Shown one piece after another: positions 53,919-57,992 of a stretch of 64,000 nucleotides of DNA. Within the stretch, counting starts at the first letter, position 1, and every line of letters starts with the position of its first letter. The stretch lies in assembly GCF_004323735.1 (NCBI RefSeq), contig NZ_CP036455.1, positions 5,451,101-5,515,100 of the forward strand. Reading direction: 5' to 3'. Made by a program: the position numbers and the translations under genes. The notes below the pieces were generated by a model. The model saw nothing but the letters and a program-made list of their open reading frames with translations. It ran no database searches and was not told the origin of the DNA. The stretch comes from Streptomonospora litoralis (lineage in GTDB: Bacteria > Actinomycetota > Actinomycetes > Streptosporangiales > Streptosporangiaceae).

Positions 53919-54070
53919 TCGCGGCGCGGCGGTGCGGGGGCGAGACCGGCACGTCGGGCACAGGGACACGAGGGGCGAAAGCGAACGCTTGCGGCCCCGG
54001 CCCCGGAGCGCGCGGGGCGGTTGTACACAACCCGCCGTGAGACGGGTGGCGCACGCGTCCACCCATCCAC

Positions 54071-54109
54071 TAGAGTACCGGTTGATCGAACACAAGTTCG
54101 AGAAAGGAG
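54071..54109 (+). promoter_or_regulatory. Promoter, LexA (SOS) box and ribosome-binding site of the AAA ATPase gene
   Basis: TAGAGT (54071-54076) fits an actinobacterial -10. TCGAACACAAGTTCGA (54086-54101) is a perfect TCGAAC-N4-GTTCGA palindrome, the LexA operator of actinobacteria. AAGGAG (54104-54109) lies 8 bases before the ATG at 54118. LexA bound here would block early transcription, so the gene should be induced by DNA damage. Confidence 0.8.
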
Positions 54110-54117
54110 TGGGGGGC

Positions 54118-55500
54118 ATGACCACGGCAGCGCACGTCCCAGGTCGGACCGCGCCTCGGCCCGGCGGGGTCGGGCGCGCCCCCCACTCCCCTTTCGACGA
54201 CCGCATGGCGCTGCGCCGTGTCGACTGGGACGCCCCGTCGTCTGCGGCTTTCTACCGCTCTCTAGAAGCCGCGCTAGAACCGCGTATAGAGTCCGATGGC
54301 ATGGACCCCGTGCGCAACCCTTACGCCCCCGGCGCCGGCCAGCGTCCCCCCGAACTCGCGGGCCGCGAGCGCGAACTCCGCCAGTTCGAGGTCGTGCTCG
54401 AACGCGTGGCGCGGGGGCGCCCGGAGCGCAGCACGGTGCTGACCGGCCTGCGCGGCGTCGGGAAGACGGTCCTGCTGAACGCCTTCCGGTCGATGGCCAT
54501 CCAGCGCCTCTGGGGCACCGGCAAAATCGAGGCACGCCCCGAGCAGTCCATCCGGCGCCCGGTGGCGGCCGCGCTGCACATGGCCCTGCGCGAGCTCGCA
54601 CCCCGCCACCGCGCGCCCGACCGCATCGAGCACGTACTTGGCGTGCTGAAGGCGTTCGCGCAGGCCAAGTCCGACGACGGCGCGGGGGCGAAGGCCGCCA
54701 AGGGCGGCCCGCGCTGGCAGCCGGGCATCGACGTCCCCGCGGTACGCGGCCGGGCGGACTCCGGCGACCTCGAAATCGACCTGATGGAGCTGTTCGTCGA
54801 CGCCGCCTCGATCGCCACCGACCTCGGGGTGGGGATCGCGCTGTTCATCGACGAGATGCAGGACATCACGCCCGACGACATCTCGGCGCTGTGCACGGCC
54901 TGCCATGAACTCTCGCAGAACGGCGGCCCGCTGATCGTGGTCGGCGCCGGACTGCCGCACCTGCCCGCGGTGCTGTCGGCCGGCAAAAGCTACTCCGAGC
55001 GCCTCTTCAGCTACACCCGCATCGACCGGCTGAGCCGCAGCGCCGCCGACTACGCGCTCACCGCACCGGCCGACGAGGAGGGGGTCGACTTCGGACCGGA
55101 GGCGCTTGAGGCGCTCTACCGGGTCTCCGACGGCTTTCCGTTCTTCGTGCAGGCCTACGGCAAGGTCACCTGGGACCACGCGCTGCGCAGCCCCATAACC
55201 GCCGAAGACGTCGAGATCGCCGCCCCCGAGGCGGAGGAGGAACTCGCCGTCGGCTTCTTCGGCAGCCGCTACGAGCGCGCCACCCCGGCGGAACGCGACT
55301 ACATGCGTGCCATGGCCTCGCTCGGCGACGAGCCGGTGCAGACCACAGACGTCGCCACCTCACTGGGCCGCCGCCCGTCGAGCCTTTCCCCCGCCCGCGA
55401 CAGCCTGATCAAGAAGGGGCTCGTCTACAGCGCCGAACGCGGCACGATCGCGTTCACCGTTCCCCACTTCGGCAGGTTCCTGCGCCGTCAGCCGGACTGA
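54118..55500 (+). CDS. AAA/STAND-like ATPase under a LexA box
   Basis: The 460-residue protein has Walker A GLRGVGKT (110-117), Walker B IALFIDEMQD (about 243), an SVGA-like sensor strand LIVVGAGLPHLP, and a C-terminal winged-helix region (ERDYMRAMASLGDEPVQTTDVATSLGRRPSSLSPARDSLIKKGLVY). This layout resembles Orc1/Cdc6-like archaeal-type ATPases. ATG 54118 is supported by AAGGAG and the LexA box. The first 61 residues contain rare CTA and ATA codons, and the usual family start MDPVRNPYAPG begins at 54301, just after TAGAGT (54287-54292), so a second, leaderless start is possible. The role is unknown. Confidence 0.82.
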   Translation: MTTAAHVPGRTAPRPGGVGRAPHSPFDDRMALRRVDWDAPSSAAFYRSLEAALEPRIESDGMDPVRNPYAPGAGQRPPELAGRERELRQFEVVLERVARGRPERSTVLTGLRGVGKTVLLNAFRSMAIQRLWGTGKIEARPEQSIRRPVAAALHMALRELAPRHRAPDRIEHVLGVLKAFAQAKSDDGAGAKAAKGGPRWQPGIDVPAVRGRADSGDLEIDLMELFVDAASIATDLGVGIALFIDEMQDITPDDISALCTACHELSQNGGPLIVVGAGLPHLPAVLSAGKSYSERLFSYTRIDRLSRSAADYALTAPADEEGVDFGPEALEALYRVSDGFPFFVQAYGKVTWDHALRSPITAEDVEIAAPEAEEELAVGFFGSRYERATPAERDYMRAMASLGDEPVQTTDVATSLGRRPSSLSPARDSLIKKGLVYSAERGTIAFTVPHFGRFLRRQPD

Positions 55501-55766
55501 CAGAGGTCAGGTGAGGTCGCTCTTGCCCCGTATCAACACATCTAACATTTTCACTATAAACAGCTAGACAACGCGAGACAGGCGCCGGACTCGCGCTCTC
55601 TATGGACGTCTAGAAAATCATCTAGAAACTGCTATACGGAACCATAGTCCACTGTCCACGGGCATCACGCGGTATGGGAAACGGTGGCTGGACGGAGAGG
55701 AGCGCACCCGCCAGCCAGGCGGGCGGCTACCTCCAAGCCCGGTCCTTTAGGGCCTCTAGGGCCGGG
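55501..55766. other. AT-rich intergenic stretch with CTAGA words
   Basis: No gene is seen. The composition drops well below the genome's GC. GCTAGACA, GTCTAGAAAA and ATCTAGAAAC occur within 60 bp (about 55565-55630). It separates the convergent ATPase and MauE-like genes, so promoters are not expected here. Confidence 0.5.
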
Positions 55767-56705
55767 TCAAGTTGACGTGGGAACCTGGGAGTCGGCCGCC
55801 GTACCGCGGCCCTGTTTGCGGGTGCCGCCAACCTGCCAACCGTCGGACGGGAGGGACACCTTCACGCCGCTTCCACCGGCTCCACCGCGGCGGCCGGTGT
55901 CGGCGGGACCGCCCAGCACCGACAGCACCGCGCCCGTGTCGGGGGCGGTGATCACCGCACGGACAGCCGGGTGTCGGCCCTCCAGCGGGACACCGAACAC
56001 CACGTCGACCACCCGGCCGTTGCGGTGCCCGGTGAACAGCGCGAACCTCCAGCAGCCCTGGCGCCACACGTCGACGGGTTCGGCCCGGGTCACGACCGCG
56101 GTGTTGGCGCGCCAGACGTCGCTGGCCCGCAGCCGCGACAAGGTCCGCTTCACCGGTACCTCCCGCACGGCGCAGGGGACGCGGCGCGTGGCGCGGCGGG
56201 CCAGTTCTACCAGTTCCGGGGAGAGCGCGCCGATGAGCAGCGCCTCGACCGCGATTACCGCCGCGTGGCCGGGCGTCGCCCCGGAAACCACGCCGACCGC
56301 CGTCGTCGGCAGTCCCACAGTCGCGAGGGCGGCCGCACCGAGCAGCGCGCTGCGGGCGATGCTCCGCCAGTCGACGGGAGTCGTACTGAGGCCGCCGAAG
56401 CAGCCGCACCCGGTCTCCGGCGCCGTGCGCCGCAGTGCCGCCAGCGCCGCGACTCCGCCGGCGAACAGCACGGCGGCCGCGATCCGGGCGGCCCCGCCCA
56501 CCGCCCCCGCGGCGCCGATCAGCGCGAGCGCGATCACCGCTTCGGCGGTGCCCTGAACCGGCGTGGCCACGCGGCGCCACCGGACGGGCAGGAGCACCGC
56601 CGGTCCCTGGCCGCGCGGTGAGCGGTCGGCGAGTTTCGCCGCCGCGCCCAGCAGCAGCATCACCGCCAGAACGGGCAGTTGGGATTCGCGGACTACATCG
56701 AGCAC
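55767..56705 (-). CDS. MauE/DoxX-like redox membrane protein
   Basis: The 312-residue protein has an N-terminal four-helix membrane domain (about 1-165) with a paired cysteine motif ETGCGCFGG (C100, C102), typical of MauE-like proteins that assist disulfide formation in methylamine dehydrogenase and other exported Cys-rich proteins. A soluble ~145-residue C-terminal domain follows (VWRQGCWRFALFTGHRNGRVVDVVFGVPL), not usual for the family. It starts 6 bp after the stop of a Cys-rich protein gene, so the two are co-expressed and probably work together. Confidence 0.82.
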   Translation of the reverse strand: MLDVVRESQLPVLAVMLLLGAAAKLADRSPRGQGPAVLLPVRWRRVATPVQGTAEAVIALALIGAAGAVGGAARIAAAVLFAGGVAALAALRRTAPETGCGCFGGLSTTPVDWRSIARSALLGAAALATVGLPTTAVGVVSGATPGHAAVIAVEALLIGALSPELVELARRATRRVPCAVREVPVKRTLSRLRASDVWRANTAVVTRAEPVDVWRQGCWRFALFTGHRNGRVVDVVFGVPLEGRHPAVRAVITAPDTGAVLSVLGGPADTGRRGGAGGSGVKVSLPSDGWQVGGTRKQGRGTAADSQVPTST

Positions 56706-56711
56706 GGGTCA

Positions 56712-57686
56712 TCACCCCACGGTCAAGGTCGCGTTGAAGCAGCCGGACTCCGGCCGCCCGCCGAGCGCCAGAAAGCTCGCCAGCGTCAGTTGCGCGATGC
56801 GGCCGTCCCCGCCGGAGTCGCAGGTCGCGCAGCGGTCGCAGAAATGCGCGGTCACCGAGGCGCAGTCGACCACCGGCAGAACGGCGGAATCGCCGGTGCA
56901 GTCGTTGTCCAGGGTGACCGCGGTCCCCCGGGACAGCAGCGGCAGCGGTCGGCAACTTCGCACGCGGTCGCACGCGTCGCCGCAGTCGCTCCCGCCGTCC
57001 AGCGCCGGGTAGGCCGCCCCGCGCAGACCGGAAAGCGCGGTATCGCCGACGGCGGGGTCGTACCAGGCGACCGACCCGTGTACCCGGTTGCCGACGTTGC
57101 GCGGCACCTGCGGCGGCGCCGCGTCCCACACCGGGAACGGCGGCTGAGTCGCCGCCGGGAGCGAGGCGTGGACGACGCCGTCCTCCCACATACCGATGGC
57201 GTCGAACAGGTAGCCGGGTCGCAGAGCGGGCAGCCGGACGCCCATCCGCCCGGAGGAGCGGTACGGGATCACCACGGGGCGGCGCGCGCCCGTGTGGCCG
57301 GTGTCGATCTCCAGCGTGTCCCCGGAACGGGAGGCGATCACGCCGGTCACGCGGGCTATGCGCACCCAGATCCGCTCGGCGACCCAGCGGCCCGCGCGGC
57401 ACTTCACGACCACGTCGTCGCCGATGCGCAGCCCCGACAGGCCGACCTCGCGGCCGCGCCAGAACGTCGTCGCCGCCTCGAAGAGGAACTTCTCTTCGCC
57501 GCGGTCGGTGGCGACGCCGATCACGTGGGGTGAGACGTCGGTGATCACACCGCGGGCGACCGGGTCCGGGTCCGGCACCGCAGTGGGCTCGGGTGCGGCG
57601 TGTTCTCCCAGCACAGCGGCGGTATAGCGCCGCCGCGCACGCGTATCGGCCGGCACGGGCCCTCCTCCCACCGGGTACCCGACCAT
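56712..57686 (-). CDS. Cys-rich protein partner of the MauE-like gene
   Basis: The 324-residue protein has two parts: an N-terminal beta-rich region (repeated small barrels, GVITDVSPHVIGVATDRGEEKF, RIWVRIARVTGVIASRSGDTLEI), and a C-terminal ~110 residues with nine cysteines (SDCGDACDRVRSC, NDCTGDS, DCASVTAHFCDRCATCDSG, SGCFN). No clear signal peptide is seen. The family is not recognised. Linkage to a MauE-like protein suggests that the cysteines are oxidised to disulfides or crosslinked. ATG 57686 follows GGAGGG. Confidence 0.72.
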   Translation of the reverse strand: MVGYPVGGGPVPADTRARRRYTAAVLGEHAAPEPTAVPDPDPVARGVITDVSPHVIGVATDRGEEKFLFEAATTFWRGREVGLSGLRIGDDVVVKCRAGRWVAERIWVRIARVTGVIASRSGDTLEIDTGHTGARRPVVIPYRSSGRMGVRLPALRPGYLFDAIGMWEDGVVHASLPAATQPPFPVWDAAPPQVPRNVGNRVHGSVAWYDPAVGDTALSGLRGAAYPALDGGSDCGDACDRVRSCRPLPLLSRGTAVTLDNDCTGDSAVLPVVDCASVTAHFCDRCATCDSGGDGRIAQLTLASFLALGGRPESGCFNATLTVG

Positions 57687-57992
57687 TGTCGCCCTCCGCG
57701 GTCCGCTCACCGCGCCACACGCCGAGGCGGGGTGCAGTCGGGCGGCGTTTTCCCCGCTCAGCCGTGGTTCGGAAGCTCCTCGTCGCGAAACGCCCGAAGC
57801 ACCACATCCCCCTCGTTCCGACACGCCGTGCCACACAGGCGTCGAACACCCCATTTGTGCAGAGATGGGGTCGGAAAGAGCTGGCGATTACCGCCACCGT
57901 GACACAGTGAGATCACGAGGGCGATGTGCGTCGGGGATGCGCGCCGGGCCGGGCGACGGGGCGCGCTCCAGCGGATCCGGGTCGGTGATCGC
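57687..57992. other. Intergenic region before the SigE-family gene
   Basis: No gene is seen. ACCCCAT (57848-57854) and ATGGGGT (57865-57871) form a short inverted repeat in the probable promoter area of the sigma gene. Confidence 0.45.

Follow-up and report, generated by a model that had tools for sequence, protein, structure and literature searches.

A STAND-type ATPase gene flanked by its own dyad arrays and carrying a conserved LexA box in Streptosporangiales: a candidate self-regulating system with added SOS control

The window analyzed here, a stretch of 64,000 nucleotides from Streptomonospora litoralis, contains an ATPase gene on the plus strand whose long form (54118–55500, 460 aa) is an open frame with a Pfam AAA_16 match, running from an ATG at 54118 to a stop codon that ends at 55500. 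This form would be read from an SOS promoter just upstream, which we call P1. A previous reading of the sequence alone had described a perfect SOS operator at 54086–54101 between a TAGAGT −10 and a ribosome-binding site, and this was borne out: TCGAACACAAGTTCGA at 54086–54101 has zero mismatches to TCGAACN4GTTCGA, with TAGAGT at 54071–54076 (plus strand) and the ribosome-binding site GAAAGGAG at 54102–54109 (plus strand), the latter identified from the sequence. The remaining LexA-type sites in the window (n = 9) each carry two mismatches, and the 5.8 Mb Streptomonospora genome holds two perfect boxes, of which this is one, compared with 0.27 expected from the dinucleotide content of the window. 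The closest named proteins, at 90–95% identity, come from Streptomonospora. The other perfect box (G000:C1:323274-323289, positions 1501–1516 of locus L001) is followed by a gene on the minus strand, with a GTG 12 bp downstream of the box and a product of 90 residues that matches DUF6504. Upstream of P1, we also observed a palindrome, TTGTACACAA, at 54021–54030, which is partly retained in other Streptomonospora as TGTGCACAAC.

The gene is flanked on both sides by dyad arrays built on phased TA steps, which, along with a second promoter, had been missed in the sequence-only reading, leaving its layout incomplete. The upstream array, a candidate operator at 54241–54297 (model match of 35.3 bits, E 5.2e-10, together with a pattern match), has TA steps at 54253, 54263, 54275, and 54285, a 10-12-10 spacing, and a core dyad, TCTAGAAGCCGCGCTAGA, at 54261–54278 that follows the pattern TCTAG-N8-CTAGA. 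It sits inside the annotated frame (54241–54300) and overlaps a second, presumably leaderless −10. Downstream of the gene, a first TA-phased cluster at 55531–55566 (TA at 55531, 55543, 55555, and 55565; weak model match at 55560–55574) is followed by a candidate operator at 55589–55646 (TA at 55601, 55611, 55623, 55633, and 55645; model match of 15.1 bits, E 0.0011 in the window), the core dyad of which, TCTAGAAAATCATCTAGA, occupies 55609–55626.

We compiled TA-step and dyad statistics over 130 non-redundant loci and found that the dominant distances between TA steps were 10 and 12, and never 11 (downstream counts of 251, 201, and 0, respectively). Matches to the pattern TCTA[GC]-N8-[GC]TAGA numbered 33 in the upstream arrays and 115 in the 250 bp downstream, whereas 154 kb of gene bodies contained 0 and 525 kb of flanks 7; 102 of the 130 loci had the pattern downstream. 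Over the 100 bp that follow the gene, CTAG density reached 0.0225 per bp vs. 0.00018 within the gene, and G+C content downstream dropped to 0.48–0.53, compared with 0.72 in the window. Most Streptosporangiales loci have a convergent neighbor gene downstream, which makes it unlikely that the downstream array serves as that neighbor's promoter. In the window, two minus-strand neighbors occupy 55767–57854, and their protein clusters are common to 46/81 and 71/81 loci. CTAG is rare in the window (18 observed vs. 80 expected), 7 of the 18 falling between 54070 and 55759. A known RNA element at the locus is not supported, as an Rfam search returned chance matches only.

Judging by their distribution, the dyad sites are dedicated to this one gene. 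In the 5.8 Mb genome, TCTAG-N(7-9)-CTAGA has exactly two occurrences, namely the core dyads at 54261–54278 and 55609–55626 on either side of the gene. A genome search with a model of the upstream array recovered the upstream copy at E 4.8e-8, the one downstream at 0.10, and a single marginal site in another place at 0.94; this search scores the best candidates only and may miss weak arrays, and the pattern search is independent of the model. When this genome was compared with 36 relatives, 23 of the 37 had the array and all 23 have the gene, while none of the searched genomes lacking the gene yielded an array, and G041 and G050, which encode distant homologues only, had no array of this sequence. 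Apart from one weak match (G016:C43, E 0.049), all array matches across the 37 genomes were at the gene. G005, a member of the same genus, has neither gene nor array. These large palindromic sites, confined to the two sides of this gene, appear to belong to a second control system that has not been seen before, and we found no description of a comparable autoregulated ATPase in the open-access literature.

The position at which the sequence-only reading had begun the gene, 54118, is the start of the extended frame of the SOS transcript, and the original (ancestral) start of the ATPase is probably codon 62, at 54301. Counted from Met62 (MDPVRNPYAPGAG), the ATPase would have a short form of 399 aa (54301–55500, plus strand), as indicated by upstream stops in unboxed loci and by the dyad distance in distant homologues; homologues outside the SOS lineage mostly start at this codon of the window protein. 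Nearly all chromosomal orthologues carry a CTA/ATA-step array directly 5′ of codon 62 that ends in TANNNT, and this TANNNT, about 6–8 nt before the codon, is conserved over families and resembles the −10 of a leaderless transcript. In the window, a TAGAGT at 54287–54292 (plus strand), within the right arm of the upstream operator, was assigned from its sequence as the −10 of a presumed leaderless promoter, P2. The window dyad is centered 31.5 bp before codon 62, and because the dyads of distant homologues sit similarly far from their own starts, this distance supports Met62 as the ancestral start.

The 61 codons between the two starts (54118–54300, plus strand) constitute an N-terminal extension found in boxed lineages. 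Upstream of codon 62, 103/103 boxed loci have no stop in this frame for 25 codons or more, and in 83 of them it remains open past the box; of the unboxed loci, 57/79 have a stop in the 20 codons preceding codon 62, often a TAG of the array itself. Within Streptomonospora, the extension shows the excess of third-position changes typical of coding sequence, and between genera its amino acids are little constrained and poorly conserved. Residues 1–34 are predicted to be disordered and have low confidence in the AlphaFold2 model. Since the extension stays in frame in boxed loci, translation of the SOS transcript most likely runs through the operator and yields a longer form of the ATPase.

That the product is an AAA ATPase, as already proposed, was confirmed by its match to AAA_16 (E 8.8e-20; 72.3 bits against that model's own cut-off of 32.6). 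Its score against ATPase_2 (PF01637) was 16.7 bits, below the curated cut-off of 33.2, and that against the Orc1/Cdc6 model TIGR02928 was 16.4 bits, far under the cut-off of 181.3. The AlphaFold2 model (mean pLDDT of 83.6, with the core mostly >90) is consistent with the C-terminal winged helix that had been suggested. In a fold search with this model, the best matches were the archaeal STAND/ATPase_2-like proteins PABY2304 (2qen; Z 24.2, 324 residues aligned, rmsd 4.1) and SSO1545 (2fna; Z 22.1), which align over residues 66–457, covering the ATPase core and winged helix, at 16–18% identity to the window ATPase; next came Orc2 (1w5t; Z 20.5), and then NLR-type STAND proteins and TnsC, with NLR and CED-4 ATPases at Z 16–19. 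STAND NTPases are marked by an hhGRExE motif before Walker A and a GxP motif farther along the chain. We identified LAGRERE at 80–86 (G82 and R83 invariant) and GFP at 339–341 (P341 invariant) in alignments A1 and A3, so that the ATPase has both motifs; it also has the fold of solved STAND members. “STAND-type ATPase with a winged helix” is a better name for the protein than Orc1/Cdc6: at the sequence level, the earlier label “Orc1/Cdc6-like” is only weakly supported by the TIGR02928 score, and in the fold search 2qen and 2fna score above Orc2, the STAND and archaeal ATPases being closer. A phmmer search against PDB sequences gave nothing meaningful, and the anti-phage models of PADLOC gave no clear match (best mad8, E 0.0023). 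The NCBIfam anti-phage model DS41_1 matched 6 of 42 homologues (best E 2e-4). We found neither an effector domain in the protein nor a conserved partner gene in plasmid neighborhoods that would hint at a biochemical role.

Homologues of 25–44% identity were present on plasmids of Actinomycetota and Pseudomonadota and on viral contigs, and these too have dyads upstream of their starts, of differing sequence, such as TATAGAGGTTTATGG-CATCCTTC-CCATAACCCTCTATA at L293 and GACTGTAGGCATCTGTTG-CGTATTCA-CAACAGGTGCCTACAGTC at L303. Such dyads reached p 0.05 at 13/24 loci, with a combined p of 1e-9 vs. 0.32 and 0.04 in two control windows, and the centers of the clearest ones mostly lie 26–31 bp before the start. 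The dyad sites thus seem to follow the protein: they stay at a similar position while their sequence differs with the protein, which supports binding by the ATPase itself. Downstream of the plasmid homologues, long-arm inverted repeats were at background level and there was no downstream array, suggesting that looping between arrays would not be general. The idea of a mobile operon was dropped, as the plasmid neighborhoods show no conserved partner gene. On the Rhodococcus opacus plasmid pROB01 (L293 1–5767), the homologue is next to genes for a TnsA-like protein, a transposase, TniB, and TniQ, and on two viral contigs (L313 1308–5185 and L330 1479–7947), translations inspected by eye pointed to apparent repressor, DnaC-like loader, or terminase genes nearby. 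MT837995, the one match to a phage record, is a 5.9 kb faecal-sample scaffold that is unverified and unannotated, and it was not taken as an argument for a phage origin.

Scanning the promoters of orthologues, we found the box upstream of nearly all those from Streptosporangiales, with the promoter layout kept. At 94 orthologue loci read forward, the box was perfect in 21, had one mismatch in 64 and two in 6, and was absent from 3, such that 85/94 loci have a box with at most one mismatch adjoining a conserved −10. To describe the layout, we used the 86 distinct promoters whose box has at most one mismatch. A TANNNT precedes the box in 85 of these, at a distance of 8–14 bp in 81 and 1–7 bp in 4, its commonest forms being TACAGT (58), TACTGT (12), TAGAGT (7), and TAGTGT (5), and an in-frame start follows within 44 nt of the box in 78/86. 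In many Streptosporangiaceae, a further box, weaker than the first, lies about 43 bp upstream. The recA gene of the genomes that carry these orthologues has TCGAAC-N4-GTTCGG, and their lexA has several perfect or near-perfect boxes (a one-mismatch site at lexA is TCGAACGTTTGTTTGA); because recA and lexA carry the same motif, a one-mismatch box at the ATPase gene is an ordinary form of LexA site there. The motif also agrees with the Streptomyces venezuelae LexA consensus obtained by ChIP-seq, tCGAAC-N4-GNNCGa, as given in the text of PMC9380542. With box and promoter layout conserved, the motif shared with recA and lexA, and the ChIP-seq consensus in agreement, LexA control of the ATPase gene in Streptosporangiales is, on sequence grounds, well supported.

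A homologue was detected in 98/296 genomes sampled across the class. Among orthologues beyond Streptosporangiales (about 60–85% identity over the matched stretch), we found no box except for an isolated one with one mismatch at L252. The SOS control put forward in the sequence-only reading therefore holds for Streptosporangiales but not for the other families, making it a trait of one order and not of the ATPase as such. Mapped onto an 81-row protein tree, the box requires 4 changes (3 forced) vs. 27 with shuffled labels; the named boxed rows belong to Nocardiopsidaceae, Thermomonosporaceae, and Streptosporangiaceae, the sister group is unboxed, and Herbidospora retains a box with two mismatches. 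The fork that would contain all boxed rows has moderate support (83/72). The simplest reading is that the box was gained once within Streptosporangiales, with few losses. The candidate shares its box sequence and the position of the box in the promoter with the actinobacterial LexA (SOS) regulon, for example that of S. venezuelae as described in the main text of PMC9380542; an ATPase of this kind is not mentioned in that main text, where the terms “ATPase” and “AAA” occur 0 times. Our search of the open-access literature found no description of an ATPase of this kind under LexA.

The reading we favor, with a probability of roughly 0.68, is that of a self-regulating STAND ATPase that binds its own dyads and has come under SOS induction by acquiring a further promoter upstream, which encodes an extended form. 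On this view, the protein would be an AAA+ ATPase of the STAND type that stands alone, ends in a winged helix, and binds dyad operators reserved for it, as the co-occurrence and co-divergence of gene and dyads suggest; it would also repress its own leaderless promoter P2, possibly with looping between the upstream and downstream arrays. The Streptosporangiales would have acquired a second promoter upstream, P1, that carries one or two LexA boxes, such that DNA damage, through cleavage of LexA, would induce P1, and its message would be translated straight through the operator into the N-terminally extended form. With less confidence, and because homologues sit on plasmids and prophages, we infer that the ATPase is a mobile-element-related switch that acts upon DNA damage or the activity of foreign replicons; it may have a role in DNA damage or phage response.

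The dyads could instead be bound by a different transcription factor, with the ATPase merely its target and SOS control via P1 unaffected. SARP-like activators recognize repeats of about 11 bp that end shortly before a −10, and the upstream array, with its roughly 11 bp repeats ending just before one, would suit such a factor. We nevertheless regard this as rather unlikely, given that the array is found only in genomes that have the gene and essentially only beside it, that plasmid contexts contain no conserved neighboring regulator gene, and that the dyads of distant homologues differ yet keep a similar position, as if the site followed the protein. An even smaller likelihood attaches to the proposal that the 54086–54101 palindrome serves some repressor other than LexA, or belongs to the promoter but has no role in SOS. 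The support for LexA comes from sequence, which leaves some room for this proposal, but recA in the same families has the same TCGAAC-N4-GTTCGG, lexA has perfect or near-perfect boxes, and the motif fits the consensus in the text of PMC9380542.

It is also improbable, in our estimation, that gene and arrays form an initiator-origin module, in which a damage-inducible Orc/STAND-type initiator would act on the flanking arrays in replication, restart, or recombination once SOS derepresses the extended form. Archaeal initiator genes that have binding repeats beside them present a similar picture, the archaeal Orc1/Cdc6 and Orc2 initiators (1w5t, 2qby, and 2v1u) share the AAA+ core with winged helix and are among the best fold matches (Z 17.5–20.5), and arrays on both sides, the low G+C downstream, and the SOS promoter would all be in keeping with such a module. 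The window protein differs from these initiators, however, in its STAND-type motifs and in a site that overlaps the promoter of its own gene, and the plasmid homologues lack a downstream array, while the score against the Orc1/Cdc6 model is far from its cut-off. Returning to the self-regulating STAND ATPase, a further parallel is offered by MalT-type STAND regulators, in which a STAND ATPase binds repeated DNA sites; the fold search also returned the maltose-system entry 8bob (Z 15.8). In MalT, DNA binding falls to a separate domain and there are sensor repeats, whereas the window protein consists of ATPase and winged helix only. We know of no autoregulatory dyads or SOS control for PABY2304 or SSO1545.

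Across a whole actinobacterial order, the SOS regulon gains a candidate member that is strongly conserved. The ATPase gene and its dedicated dyads, with their strict 10–12 bp TA phasing, would make up a self-contained regulatory device, and the open frame through the operator would represent a clear case of SOS control grafted onto an existing gene. Plasmid and prophage homologues carry dyads at a similar place. With such a device, the DNA target of this uncharacterised ATPase family is directly testable.

As a separate observation outside the window, the recA gene (G000:C1:1700324-1703692) contains three pieces matching RecA in one long open frame, which cover model positions 1–72, 66–202, and 196–321. 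This looks like two inteins, and the same arrangement is seen in several relatives.
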